64,000 nt of DNA from Arctopsyche grandis (lineage: Eukaryota > Arthropoda > Insecta > Trichoptera > Hydropsychidae): NCBI RefSeq assembly GCF_051622035.1, contig NC_135355.1:29172986-29236985 (forward strand), given 5' to 3'. Position 1 is the first letter of the stretch. Each line of letters starts with the position of its first letter. This document shows positions 7,131-51,935 of the stretch, in pieces. A program made the translations under genes and the position numbers. Below the pieces are notes generated by a model. The model was not told the DNA's origin. It saw only the letters and a list, made by a program, of their open reading frames with translations, and made no database searches.

Positions 7131-7350
7131 CCTGAGATTTAAGTATTTGCGGTTCAATCTACCTAACGTTTGTAGAAAAAATAACCACATATACATAGCT
7201 CTAATCTACGTTGATTTTTTTCCATTTACCGGTAAAAACTGGGAGAAATTATTTACCGTCTACCGGTAAATGAAATTTGGCCATAAATTGCAATCTCTAA
7301 TAAGTTTCAAAAGAAGTGTTGCAACGAGATGCTACGTGCTGCGTCGTAAG

Positions 7351-7503
7351 TAGAGATAGGCGCAGGACCGTGCTTTTTGGACAAAAAATGAGAGTTTTGG
7401 GGCGATTTTCCAGGAAAGAGGGCAAACTACAAAGCTAGAGACCAAAAACAAAAAGGTTCACCATAAAAATGAACAATAGTGCGCAGGGTCGCGCCGAAGC
7501 TTA
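7351..7503. mobile_element. Short hAT-type MITE
   Basis: Starts TAGAGATAGGCGCAGGACC and ends GCGCCGAAGCTTA, flanked by GTCGTAAG (7343-7350) and GTCATAAC (7504-7511), 6 of 8 matching. The interior GGGGCGATTTTCC and AAAGCTAGAG resemble the elements at 11507 and 42800. Confidence 0.6.
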
Positions 7504-7518
7504 GTCATAACTCATAAG

Positions 7519-7675
7519 CAAAGATCGACGTTCGATGGATACTTTTCGCACAAAAAATGGTTCCCTATTGTCAATTTCTAACAAAAACCTTGCATTTTTA
7601 AATCTCTTGTTTTTAACATCAATGTAGTGGTCTATTGTTTGAAAAGCATCCAACGCTGATCTCTGGTCATAAGTT
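7519..7675. mobile_element. CAGAG-type short hAT MITE
   Basis: Ends CAAAGATCGACGTTCGATGG and AACGCTGATCTCTG. Flanks CTCATAAG (7511-7518) and GTCATAAG (7676-7683) match at 7 of 8. It shares the first base of its left flank with the right duplication of the preceding element, so the two are back to back. The closest sister is at 63149-63288. Confidence 0.7.
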
Positions 7676-11388: not shown

Positions 11389-11396
11389 CTCATAAG

Positions 11397-11498
11397 TAGA
11401 GGTAGGATAGTCACAGTGCTATCCATTGTTCGGCAAACCTTTAACAATGCATTTACAACCTTTGAACAATACACGGCCCCCTCAGGCTCCGGTGACTA
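11397..11498 (-). mobile_element. Short hAT-type MITE, 102 bp, identical to 5889-5990
   Basis: TAGAGGTAGGATAG to CCGGTGACTA with perfect CTCATAAG duplications at 11389-11396 and 11499-11506. The right duplication is at once followed by the next element. Confidence 0.85.
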
Positions 11499-11506
11499 CT
11501 CATAAG

Positions 11507-11671
11507 TAGACTGCGGATAGAGACCGTGCTTTTTCCAAGAATCGGGGCGGTTTGGCTCTATTTACAAAGCTAGAGTACAAAAAAAAAGGTTGGGCGAACT
11601 TTTTACAACAATTGAACAATAGCATTTACAACAATTAAACAATAAACGGCGCGCTGTGGATCCGGCCACTA
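11507..11671. mobile_element. Short hAT-type MITE abutting the previous one
   Basis: Starts TAGACTGCGGATAGAGACCG immediately after the CTCATAAG duplication, ends GGATCCGGCCACTA, and is followed by CTCAAAG, a near copy of the same duplication. The interior AATCGGGGCGGTTTGGCTCT is shared with 42800-42923. Confidence 0.65.
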
Positions 11672-11847
11672 CTCAAAGTGACTTTGGCCTTTTATTTGGA
11701 TTCCGAACATGTTTTTAACCAAAATCGGATTTACGAGGTATATAAATTGAGCTGCCGACGCAGTAAATTGACTGATTCCACTGACAACCCTACAAGCGGG
11801 CCCGTACTATCATCTGCTAGTGCGTCTGCCTCAGCTGGGCCGACTCT

Positions 11848-31437: not shown

Positions 31438-31850
31438 TAATGGTTCGGTGATTACTAGTCACCGGACCCAGAAGGGGCAATGCATTGTTAAAGGTTTGCC
31501 GAACCTTTTTTACAAAGGATTTGCAACAATGGAACAATGGATAGCACTGTGACTATCCTACCTCTAGTGATTACTAGTCAAATGTGAACCGGTCACAGGA
31601 CAACCGGTCGCCCTAGATCGGTCACACGTGATCACCCGTCACACTAAAACTGGTCACGATAAAACTAGTCATACCCTAAAATCGGTCACGAGAAAACTGG
31701 TTGACCGATTTTAGGGTGTGACCAGTTTTCTCGTGACCAGTTTTAGGGTGTAATCAGTTTTAGTGTGACGGCTGATCACGTGTGACCGATCTAGAGCGAC
31801 CGGTTGTCCTGTGACTGGTTTACATATGACTAGTAGTCCGTTTACCGCCA
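31438..31850. mobile_element. Foldback element built of GGTCAC repeats, interrupted by a MITE
   Basis: The left arm TACTAGTCAAATGTGAACC and GGTCACAGGACAACCGGTCG are mirrored by CGACCGGTTGTCCTGTGAC and TACATATGACTAGTAG. Each arm is itself a series of 15-20 bp units with NCNGGTCAC cores. The arms seem to extend outward past the MITE at 31456-31566, which therefore inserted into the left arm. Confidence 0.7.
31456..31566 (+). mobile_element. Short hAT-type MITE, 111 bp
   Basis: TAGTCACCGGACCCAGAAGG to CCTACCTCTA with perfect GTGATTAC duplications at 31448-31455 and 31567-31574. It is internally deleted relative to the 133-bp copy at 49128. Confidence 0.8.
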
Positions 31851-34700: not shown

Positions 34701-34986
34701 TGTTCTTTCGTATAACACGAGTAGTGCGTAATAGACGATTAAATATGAACTTTATTACGACACATTATCGCATCTGCATTTGTCTATAGTTAAATCTTCA
34801 TATTGTGATACGCTTAGCGGGGTTGTGGGCCGACCAACTAGCACTTGTATAACAAAATCAGTTAAAAAAACTTTTCCTCGACTGCTACAGGCTGGTTTTC
34901 AAAACATTTGCATTATATTGTACCGAAATTTCAATATATATGTATCATTCGAAATTTGTTGTGTTGCGCAAGTCATCAGTGATGAC

Positions 34987-35084
34987 CAGAGCTCGGCGCC
35001 TCATTGCGCAAAATGGGTTCCTATTGTAAATTTATAGAAATTTACAATAGGAACCCATTTTGCGCAATGAGGCGCTGATCTCTA
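34987..35084. mobile_element. Near-perfect palindromic hAT-type MITE, 98 bp
   Basis: The arms CAGAGCTCGGCGCC and TCATTGCGCAAAATGGGTTC are mirrored almost perfectly around ATAG and end GCTGATCTCTA. Flanked by perfect GTGATGAC at 34979-34986 and 35085-35092. Confidence 0.85.
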
Positions 35085-35092
35085 GTGATGAC

Positions 35093-35225
35093 TAAAGAGC
35101 GGACCCAGAGCGCGCTGTCTATTGTTCACATGTTGTAAATGCATTGTTAAAGGTTTGCCGAACCTTTTTTACAAAGAATTTACAATAATGGAACAATAGA
35201 CGGCGCGCTTCCGGTCCTACCTCTA
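35093..35225 (+). mobile_element. Short hAT-type MITE, 133 bp, second in a chain
   Basis: TAAAGAGCGGACCC to CCTACCTCTA. Its left flank GTGATGAC is the right duplication of the preceding palindrome; its right flank is GTGTTGAC (35226-35233). Confidence 0.85.
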
Positions 35226-35233
35226 GTGTTGAC

Positions 35234-35406
35234 TAAAGAGCGCACCAACTTTGCGCCGTTCATTGTTCATTGTTCGTCGTGGTTTGATCATTTTTATGAC
35301 GAACTTTTTTTTATGATCTCTAGCTTTGTAGTTTTCCCTGTTTCCTGGAAAATAGACCCAAAAGGATCTGTTTCCTGCAAAAACCACGCTTCTGGTCCTA
35401 CCTCTA
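35234..35406 (+). mobile_element. Short hAT-type MITE, 173 bp, third in a chain
   Basis: TAAAGAGCGCACCAAC to CCTACCTCTA, followed by GTGATGAC at 35407-35414. The interior ATCTCTAGCTTTGTAGTTT differs from the second element, so it is not a tandem duplication. Confidence 0.8.
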
Positions 35407-35424
35407 GTGATGACTCATGGTCAT

Positions 35425-35697
35425 CACCGCCAACACCAATTCATCATTATCGTCTACAGCCATTCACCATCCACTGCTGGATTAAGGCCTCTCTGACACG
35501 CTTCCACGCGTCTCTGTTTTGCGCAACTCTCATCCATGTCACCCCACACATTTTCATAATTTCGTCTACCCATCTTCCCTGCGGTCTTTCCTCGTTATGC
35601 CAAGCATACAACGTTCCATACTTCTTTGAGTGCATTGGACTTTGTGTAGCAACTTGACGTTCAATGTCCAAGTTTCATATCCAAACGTCATCACTAA
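35425..35697 (-). mobile_element. LINE family B 3' end
   Basis: Minus strand encodes GRWVDEIMKMCGVTWMRVAQ and REALIQQWMVNGCRR, then the CATCATTATCG trailer. It is 5' truncated and broken; the upstream part with PYALH-type text is rearranged. Confidence 0.8.
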
Positions 35698-48979: not shown

Positions 48980-48987
48980 ATGATAAC

Positions 48988-49119
48988 TAGAGGTAGGATA
49001 GCCAAGGAGCCGCTCATTGTTCCATTGTTGTAAATCCTTTGTAAAAAGGTTCGGCAAACCTTTAACAATGCATTTACAAAATTTGAACAGTACGCGGCAC
49101 CTTCTGGGTTCGGGCTTTA
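48988..49119 (-). mobile_element. Short hAT-type MITE, 132 bp, first of an inverted pair
   Basis: TAGAGGTAGGATAGCC to TTCGGGCTTTA between ATGATAAC duplications at 48980-48987 and 49120-49127. Confidence 0.85.
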
Positions 49120-49127
49120 ATGATAAC

Positions 49128-49260
49128 TAGTCACCGGACCCAGAAGGTGCCGCGTATTGTTCAAAGGTTGTAAATGCATTGTTAAAGGTTTGCCGAACCT
49201 TTTTTACAAAGGATTTACAACAATGGAACAATGGATAGCACTGTGACTATCCTACCTCTA
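49128..49260 (+). mobile_element. Short hAT-type MITE, 133 bp, second of an inverted pair
   Basis: TAGTCACCGGACCCAGAAGG to CCTACCTCTA, in opposite orientation to its neighbour. It shares ATGATAAC with that neighbour and has a third ATGATAAC at 49261-49268. Confidence 0.85.
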
Positions 49261-49316
49261 ATGATAACAAGTATTTGAGAGTGTGAGCGAGTGAGATGGA
49301 GTGATGCGCTCTCCAC

Positions 49317-49946: not shown

Positions 49947-51698
49947 TAATCGATAGAATGTCAAAAAGTGGGTGTAAAAATAATATGCATTAAACATTAA
50001 AAAATACAACATGCACAGGAAGATAAAAATAGATAAAGTATGTACTTATACAAGTTGGTAATATCAATTTGTCGAAATGTAAAAAAAAAGTATTTTTAGA
50101 TTAAAATCCTACCGTAAAATTATATGCCTAGGATTGGCAGCCCTATCTAAACCAGCTTTATATGTATTTATTTGATTTTAATTTCAGGTTTCATTAATGC
50201 TATTCCATTGACTCATGATTACGATAACGAAAAAAATATTAAACGTATTGGAAATATAATGAAAACTCTAATTTTTTAGTAGAATTTTATGGCAGCTTGA
50301 AAACTAGACTTTGAAAACTTCTTTTGGGAGGACTGTCGTGAAAATAGGCACGAATTGACGTATTTATAAAATGTAAAGGACATTGTTTGCAAATTTGTAA
50401 ATTAATTAAGTGTGCGCGTGCCGTGCCGCCAATGGTTGGTTTTTAGCTGAGACCGGTTACCAATTCCGAGAAACCGAAACTGGATGTTTTACATAACGAC
50501 GCACACGAACAGTTCATCTCGTTTGTCTGTTCATCTTGCAACCGACTCGTTGCATTGAATTCATTAAGAAAAAAATCAACGGTCTATTTCTGACGAAGCT
50601 CAAATTTCCGCAGAAAGAATAATATATATATATATATACATACATACAAATGAATATTCATAAAATATTCAAAGCGTAGTTCTCACTTTGCCGAAGTATT
50701 TCGGTGAAATTAGACTATGTTTGTATATGTATATAAGAGACTTTCATGAGATTTACTTCTTCGTATTGAAAATAATCAAAAATTTTCGGCAAAATGAGCG
50801 TTACTCAGTGCGTGTATTATATAGTTTGTTATTCACAGCTAAGAGATAAAACAATGATTTTCAATGCGACAGAAAGGACATTGGGATTAAAAACACGTCC
50901 CGGAACATATTATGCATTCTCCTACTGTTTTGAATCTCCATCTTTTTATTTTCAAGTCAATAGGTTTTAACTTGTTGAAAAAGTGTCTATTTACATTCAG
51001 GACAGCTACATTGAATTGAGAATGGAGTGAAAAAATAAAGAGTTATAACTTTTTATTTGTTACTGATTACTTCACGTCCTATCCTAGGAAGAATTCCGCG
51101 TCGAACGAGACAGTCCAGTTTTTCCATTTCGATCTCAAATCAGTACCATCAATCAACTGAGCAATTATTCTGCTAAGTCGACACCAGATTACGTGCTGTT
51201 TTGTATGCAAAGTACATATGTACGCGTTGTTTTGAACCAACTGCTCATTTCATTCAACATTCAGCACAAGCAAAAAAAAAAACGACATCGAAAGCGAATA
51301 AGTAATAGACTCCATTATAAATAAACTGGTGTAAACATACATTAAAGGAACAGAGTGAATTGTAATTAGATCTTCGATGATATGGGGATAGCACCATCAT
51401 AAATTTAAATAAGACTAATATTTTACAATCCAGCATTGAATAGTATTAAAATTTATCGTTTCCTTCGCGGATCATTTTGAAATGGACTGATGTGTAGTTA
51501 GCAGTATAAAGTGTTAGTATCAAATATGTATCTTCTTCGGCTCGTAAATCTGATGTACATATATGTTACAGTTGAAGTGTATTGTTACGGGGACAAGAAG
51601 GAGAAGGTGTAGAATATTATAGTCACAGATTTTGTCAAATGATTATATTCTTTAATTAGCAGTAAATATGAACAAGACTAATATACAAGTTTGTATTA
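49947..51698. other. Gene-free stretch
   Basis: AT-rich. (TA)n with TACATACATAC at 50623-50647. No gene seen. Confidence 0.4.
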
Positions 51699-51935
51699 CA
51701 AGTTACTAGTAAGGCAGTTTAATCGCAAGTAACTATGTATGTAGTAATCACAAGTTACTAGTAAGACAGTTTAATCGCAAGTAACTATGTAGTAATCACA
51801 AGTTACTAGTAAGGCAGTTTAATCACAAGTAACTATGTATGTAGTAATCACAAGTTACTAGTAAGGCAGTTTAATCGCAAGTAACTATGTATGTAGTAAT
51901 CACAAGTTACTAGTAAGGCAGTTTAATCGCAAGTG
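51699..51935. repeat. 52-bp minisatellite, about 4.6 copies
   Basis: Units start at 51699, 51751, 51799, 51851 and 51903 with CAAGTTACTAGTAAGGCAGT; the second unit lacks an ATGT and is 48 bp. Copies are nearly identical, so the array is young or homogenised. Confidence 0.95.

Follow-up and report, generated by a model that had tools for sequence, protein, structure and literature searches.

Tandemly arranged mobile elements have been proposed as a seed of satellite DNA. The hobo element belongs to the hAT type. According to two reviews (PMC12628747, PMC9659126), McGurk and Barbash (2018, Genome Res) described how an insertion regenerates its target and a second copy lands there, so that the tandem junction has the size of the target duplication; as reviewed there, hobo expanded to 16 tandem copies. 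The locus described here, from the trichopteran Arctopsyche grandis, follows the same principle as these double insertions in Drosophila. As summarised in the same reviews, the Drosophila cases are tandems of one element type, whereas the A. grandis chains combine different MITE families and orientations, on a target that is a marked palindrome. Repeated insertion and copying look alike in uniform arrays but can be told apart where a chain is mixed and has an 8-mer of its own. The genome contains single insertions, short chains (two to four beads) and a chain of 17 intervals, part of which is already amplified, so the steps can be compared side by side.

Structure of the chain at 34979-35414

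The window is a stretch of 64,000 nucleotides of contig NC_135355.1 (positions 29,172,986 to 29,236,985), and coordinates given without a contig refer to it. The chain, read on the plus strand, begins with a target duplication GTGATGAC (34979-34986), which fits the form STNATNAS. It is followed by E1, a 98-bp near-perfect palindromic MITE with CAGAG/TAGAG ends (34987-35084), and a second copy of GTGATGAC (35085-35092). E2, a 133-bp MITE with the ends TAAAGAGCGGACC and TAGAGGTAGGACC and with relatives in the window and in the genome, occupies 35093-35225. The third copy, GTGTTGAC (35226-35233), has one mismatch; E3, a 173-bp MITE with E2-like ends and a different middle (35234-35406), and a fourth copy, GTGATGAC (35407-35414), complete the chain. 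The sequence-only reading of three elements chained through one 8-mer, with no other DNA between them, was borne out, one of the four 8-mer copies having a mismatch. E1, described as a palindrome, is predicted to fold into a near-perfect hairpin (-78 kcal/mol). That all three elements differ held in part. E1 has no long stretch in common with E2 or E3, but E2 and E3 are related at their ends (sequence comparison: last 20 bp 95% alike, first 36 bp 75%, middles unlike), which makes them cousins.

By itself, the 8-mer is no rarity: when one mismatch is allowed, GTGATGAC occurs 49 times in the window; shuffled sequences gave a mean of 38.5 and reached at least 49 in 7 of 100 shuffles. What is not due to chance is its place at all four element boundaries, together with the genome-wide peak at exactly 8 bp. 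The surroundings of the chain (34972-35427) are also rich in targets, in that inverted copies of the same 8-mer occur to the left, in GTCATCAGTGATGAC, and to the right, in GTGATGAC-TCATG-GTCATCAC. A full heptad match, repeated or inverted, was found beside single insertions on 2 of 130 sides (mean 1.37 with shuffled flanks) and on none of 13 outer chain sides; the palindromic flanks of this site are therefore not a general feature. Elsewhere in the window, two open stretches match biotin-dependent carboxylase domains and are apparently exons.

Other chains and single insertions in the window

A second chain, of mixed orientation, lies at 48980-49268 and consists of ATGATAAC, an E2 relative (minus strand), ATGATAAC (49120-49127), an E2 relative (plus strand) and ATGATAAC. 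In the third chain (11389-11679), CTCATAAG is followed by an E2 relative (minus strand), CTCATAAG (11499-11506), an unlike element (11507-11671) and CTCAAAGT, a decayed copy. The fourth is a chain-like pair (7343-7673), in which GTCGTAAG, an E3 relative (7351-7503), the junction GTCATAACTCATAAG (7504-7518), an E1-like element (7519-7665) and GTCATAAG follow one another. The same 8-mer, within a mismatch, occupies all junctions and outer ends at 34979-35414 and again at 48980-49268, and other chains have other 8-mers. Two E2 relatives on the plus strand stand singly, at 1992-2140 with GTCATTAG on both sides and at 31448-31574 with GTGATTAC on both sides. GTGATTAC, which fits the target, also recurs four times on the minus strand in a tandem repeat with a 52-bp unit at 51698-51934.

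Junctions across the genome

The 475.7-Mb assembly (189 contigs) was scanned with two junction patterns. The tail-to-tail pattern (TACCTCTA, gap of 0-30, TAGAGGTA), which picks up pairs of opposite orientation, was found at 75 places, against 1 in the control. Among the 50 matches listed of these 75, the gap was exactly 8 in 35, of which 33 fit NTNATNAN and 26 fit STNATNAS. The tail-to-head pattern (TACCTCTA, gap of 0-30, TAGTCACC) was found at 91 places, all listed, against 2 in the control. Its gap was 8 in 69 of the 91, or in 59 of 80 after merging of same-gap rows within 20 kb; 58 of these 59 merged junctions fit NTNATNAN and 52 fit STNATNAS. The junction 8-mers vary from place to place across the genome. 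An assembly artefact, which the sequence-only reading had named as one way in which the chain could prove spurious, is unlikely, because such junctions occur on C1 to C13 with many different 8-mers. On C8 (25205573-25233255), one chain junction (GTGATCAG) occurs six times, 4.9 or 5.9 kb apart, as if within a large tandem repeat.

Target preference and a model of chain growth

Frequencies were obtained from a sample that is blind to chains. The 11-bp element end TCCTACCTCTA has 5,666 exact copies in the genome, against 304 in the control. The first 100 places listed, all on C1 between 0.8 and 8.0 Mb, gave 91 loci and 100 ends, from which 83 elements with both ends (166 sides) were kept. Ten ends without a recognised partner 8-mer were left out (including L073 and L101, with neighbours 10 and 16 bp away), as were the doubtful pairings L043, L066 and L109, L119, whose flanks are those of L118, and the second rows of the symmetric elements L046, L077 and L085. 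The copies L118 and L119 are separated by 101 kb of C1; their flanks being identical, they probably reflect a segmental duplication. At L029, L034, L035, L050 and L074, the MITE flanks have another interspersed repeat in common. A reading of L091 as one 274-bp element was rejected, as it consists of two 133-bp elements head to head. After splitting of L091 and L105, the sampled elements measure 76-177 bp, the commonest lengths being 102 and 133.

The 8-mers were identical on both sides of 70 of the 83 elements, and the rest were accepted with one or two mismatches; 73 fit NTNATNAN and 43 fit STNATNAS. A strand-symmetrised logo was built from the 48 single insertions among the first 60 loci. 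Position 2 is T in 93%, position 4 is A in 99% and position 3 is T in 39%, and the information is confined to the 8-mer, none of 15 flanking positions exceeding 0.10 bit. The target is thus the palindromic NTNATNAN, strongest as STNATNAS with G/C at both ends. For this part of the genome, the proposed examination of flanks revealed a clear preference, lying within the 8-mer only. The motif first put forward, nTSATNAn, fits the cases in the window but restricts position 3 too much and leaves out the G/C ends. STNATNAS was found in 52 of 59 chain junctions versus 29 of 64 single insertions (Fisher P 4.5e-7), which indicates that the best targets chain most.

Very probably, the chains grow in place, bead by bead, by insertion into the duplicated 8-mer target. 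E1, E2 and E3 would share one target preference, the palindrome NTNATNAN in its best form STNATNAS. Each insertion would copy the 8-mer, and the target would survive on both sides of the element; since every insertion copies its 8-mer, a chain of n elements would offer n+1 targets. Later elements of the same or a related family would insert into one of these copies, in either orientation. Members may be excised again, leaving altered or doubled 8-mers that could be used once more. The observations behind this model are the anatomy of the chains, the motif, the private 8-mer of each chain, the mixture of families and orientations and the frequency in the sample. From these we infer the order of insertion events and the excision steps.

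Frequency of abutment

Another family member was abutted exactly through the duplicated 8-mer on 22 of the 166 sides (12 on the 3' and 10 on the 5' side). These sides belong to 19 elements at 16 loci in 15 chains (L040 and L041 lie in one chain), so that sides within one chain are not independent. Abutment was judged by eye and checked against other loci. The right neighbour of L047 was counted though it lacks the first base; the left neighbour of L040, being unsupported, was not. On three additional sides of the sample (L082, L090 and L105), the neighbour was displaced by 2 bp. Together with L073, these are neighbours at 10 rather than 8 bp, with GA/TC between element end and 8-mer in L073, L082 and L105.

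The sharp palindromic target makes a null model based on the target alone computable. The density of the family was estimated from 9 clusters in a systematic 200-kb grid, with an incomplete element library; these clusters are too few for chain counts, and the grid was therefore kept as a density estimate. A structural search of the grid for 8-mer-bounded elements gave 2-3 hits and was dropped, because three of six control patterns had more than 6,700 hits, presumably from a simple repeat. NTNATNAN accounts for 1.05% of grid positions and STNATNAS for 0.067%. Relative to the average position, a STNATNAS site receives about 680 times as many insertions, and an existing target duplication about 326 times as many on average. 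The target strength used is class-based (317, then 326); earlier values were 203 (independent positions) and 270 (repeated 8-mers, some double rows).

The expected number of abutting sides is at most 2.4 at grid density, even with all other insertions being later, 4.6 at the upper 95% limit and 8.2 at the density beside elements. The 22 sides observed exceed these values with P 3e-14, 5e-9 and 5e-5, respectively; when the 15 chains are counted instead of sides, P is 5e-8, 1e-4 and 0.02. Because the density was obtained with an incomplete element library, these expectations are too low. Measured against the genome-wide model, the excess appears safe; against the local-density model it is tentative. 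In this part of the genome, abutment through a common 8-mer is therefore well above expectation (22 of 166 sides versus 2.4, or 4.6). Together with the target preference, this excess supports the sequence-only reading that an insertion regenerates a preferred target into which the next relative inserts, for the part of the genome covered.

If insertion were concentrated in permissive regions, abutment would be local crowding. Pairs of ends 10-50 kb apart are 1.7 times as frequent as expected (92 versus 55.4), and the five non-abutting neighbour sides, spread over about 33 kb of flank, correspond to roughly three times the 9 per 200 kb of the grid. However, pairs 2-10 kb apart show no excess (7 versus 11.1), and even at the local density 8.2 sides are expected against the 22 seen. 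The ratio of abutting to non-abutting neighbours, 22:5, points the same way (P 0.03), on small numbers. On this evidence crowding appears unlikely as the cause. Closer than 600 bp, 10 end pairs were found against 0.8 expected; in three of these cases both ends belong to a single symmetric element (L046, L077, L085), and L094 is probably a fourth such case.

Target preference and copy number thus predict 2-8 sides against the 22 seen, so something may add to the target preference, and a simple target-only model may be incomplete given the 2.4-4.6 (or 8.2) sides it predicts. Element ends could hold transposase that guides newcomers to the adjoining 8-mer, so that chains would form faster than target preference allows. 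The target-only expectations are exceeded about 2.7- to 9-fold, in agreement with such tethering, but this excess may shrink, as the density comes from 9 clusters in 200 kb and an incomplete library; we consider tethering doubtful.

Long chains and local copying

Several loci bear chains, which can be long. L003 has four copies of CTCATAAG. In L105, four copies of CTCATCAG surround three unlike elements (102, 169 and 133 bp), and a fourth element is displaced by 2 bp. L091 has three copies of GTTATAAA and its pair is in opposite orientation. Three copies of GTTATGAC occur at L082, where this chain (L082:440-870) lies at the centre of another inverted-repeat stretch, at GTCATAAGTTATGAC. The row that begins at C1:2,109,624 comprises five intervals and the first part of another element, on CTTATGAG or GTTATGAG. 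Along this row the terminal base of the 8-mer alternates between C and G, and one 290-bp interval may hold two elements.

The longest chain (C2:9,122,144-9,124,667; L008, L121, L122) contains 17 element-sized intervals in a row, of 102-199 bp. Five intervals stand on GTCATAAC (two copies mismatched), followed by GTCATAAC-A-GTTATGAC and by twelve intervals on GTTATGAC or GTTATAAC. A single A thus separates the part on GTCATAAC from the part on its reverse complement, GTTATGAC. The right end is imperfect in interval 3 and not recognisable in interval 7. Seven of the twelve units (c10-c16, 130-133 bp) are 95-100% identical, co-oriented and mostly spaced at a 141-bp period; other pairs are 68-92% alike or not alignable. 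This contrast indicates that the chain consists of unlike pieces and a part amplified by copying, and we infer that the unlike pieces came first. A chain is seen here in one place with what may be an incipient satellite.

Units c10-c16 are also what would be expected if tandem duplication, by unequal exchange or replication slippage, had multiplied one element together with its 8-mer. Likewise, five neighbouring tail-to-head row pairs have a distance of 110 or 141 bp (one on C4, one on C6, three on C9), four of them with the same 8-mer, and duplication is the explanation given for MITE arrays in coral, as far as described in PMC2872659. However, in the chain at 34979-35414 and in others the neighbours are of different families or face opposite ways, and duplication of a single element cannot produce such a row. 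For mixed chains it is contradicted by their unlike or inverted members, and it stands as a second step for uniform arrays; as the general origin of chains it is very unlikely. The sequence-only statement that the chain is not tandem duplication therefore needs qualification: mixed families, mixed orientations and private 8-mers argue against duplication as the general cause, but copying of one unit also contributed to the growth of at least one long chain.

A pair with intact outer ends could in principle move together, and pairs or chains might then jump as one composite element bounded by the outermost ends. This would place new outer 8-mers around an old inner one. In the chains read, however, the inner 8-mers match the outer ones, and different chains have different 8-mers. 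We regard such composite jumps as extremely improbable. At L047, the 8-mers differ along the row (GTAATAAC, GTCATAAT).

Growth in place by insertion into the duplicated 8-mer may have a further consequence. A STNATNAS site, once hit, could become a self-reinforcing landing pad, whose element ends or bound transposase would draw insertions and excisions beyond what the 8-mer predicts. Chain length would then follow from preferential attachment, and the longest chains would seed satellite arrays, as the C2 chain with its 17 intervals and seven near-identical units suggests. This extension is put forward tentatively, as a possibility rather than an expectation.

Junctions longer than 8 bp

An excision footprint of a hAT element consists of side-by-side copies of the 8-mer with changes in the bases that adjoin the cut. 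Junctions longer than 8 bp were read, together with the outer 8-mers, in five cases, namely the pair at 7343-7673 and L132 to L135. At L135, both outer copies are GTCATGAC and the inner 22-mer, GTCATGA-ATCATGA-CTCATGAC, contains three copies whose changed bases adjoin the joins. In the chain-like pair at 7343-7673, between the outer copies GTCGTAAG and GTCATAAG, the 15-mer GTCATAACTCATAAG reads GTCATAA-C-TCATAAG and resembles a footprint. The junction at 7504-7518 and that of L135 fit the footprint pattern, and L133 fits in part. At L132 each element has its own outer 8-mer, so two neighbouring targets suffice and no footprint is needed. A spacing of 15 bp was seen 6 times, against about 1.2 usual per spacing (P 0.0015, or 0.019 when natural target overlap is allowed for); the statistics of the 15-mer junctions are weak (P 0.02 for their number, 0.06 for self-similarity). 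A few junctions thus resemble hAT excision footprints, and some chain members may have been cut out again.

Relation to hAT elements

The Ac-type hAT target has the form nTnnnnAn, and hAT terminal inverted repeats begin with YARNG. The T at position 2 and the A at position 7 are part of NTNATNAN and hence present in the 73 of 83 sampled elements that fit it. The TAGAG, CAGAG and TAAAG ends agree with YARNG; the TAGTC, TAGAC and CAGTC ends do not. The elements are short, without transposase and of high copy number, as MITEs are, and as in double insertions the junctions have the size of the target duplication with matching outer copies. Judged by the target duplication, the target and part of the ends, E1, E2 and E3 are probably non-autonomous hAT-type MITEs, and a hAT transposase would have made the chains.

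The hAT domain PF05699 is present in the genome (150 of 2,335 candidates scored). Five hAT transposase loci were examined, and none of them proved to hold an autonomous partner with the ends of the MITEs. L123 (C5:729600-732900) has a 628-aa open hAT frame, with the 8-mer GTGACAAC on both sides and ends (TAGGCTTG) unlike those of the MITEs. The 873- and 862-aa copies have CAGTGGCGTAAC ends, and no ends were recognised for the 655- and 640-aa copies. Among the 150 hAT hits listed, 13 frames of 628 aa at 66.0 bits, one of 628 aa at 64.7 bits and one of 474 aa lie within 3.6 Mb (C2:30794643-34350408).

Comparison with known systems

Our search, which most subscription papers lay outside, found no report of chains of unlike MITEs joined through one target duplication with a genome-wide count. 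At inversion breakpoints of Atlantic cod, the main text of PMC12368964 describes hAT-derived MITEs in tandem over up to several kb, as here; unlike here, the units are of 167-169 bp and belong to two subfamilies of one family, and the terms 'TSD' and 'target site duplication' are absent from that main text. The SaTar/MULE arrays of guayule and rice, as presented in PMC5907723, also have intact, unlike non-autonomous elements placed end to end through a preferred target. Their elements are MULEs and their linker is a microsatellite, whereas the linker here is one 8-bp target duplication. The coral CMITE arrays, in the account given by PMC2872659, likewise consist of full-size MITEs but are of piggyBac type with a TTAA target, and their formation is ascribed to replication slippage; of the A. 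grandis chains, only the uniform stretch of the C2 array is similar. Mar, a Buster-type hAT MITE of Drosophila, shares the 8-bp target duplication; the Mar/Buster target as stated in PMC3517528 is nnnTAnnn, whereas the A. grandis target has T at position 2, a central AT and A at position 7, so that the central TA of Buster is not found. Double insertion into a target duplication was already known, and the mixed MITE chains, frequent and sometimes long, are what is new here.
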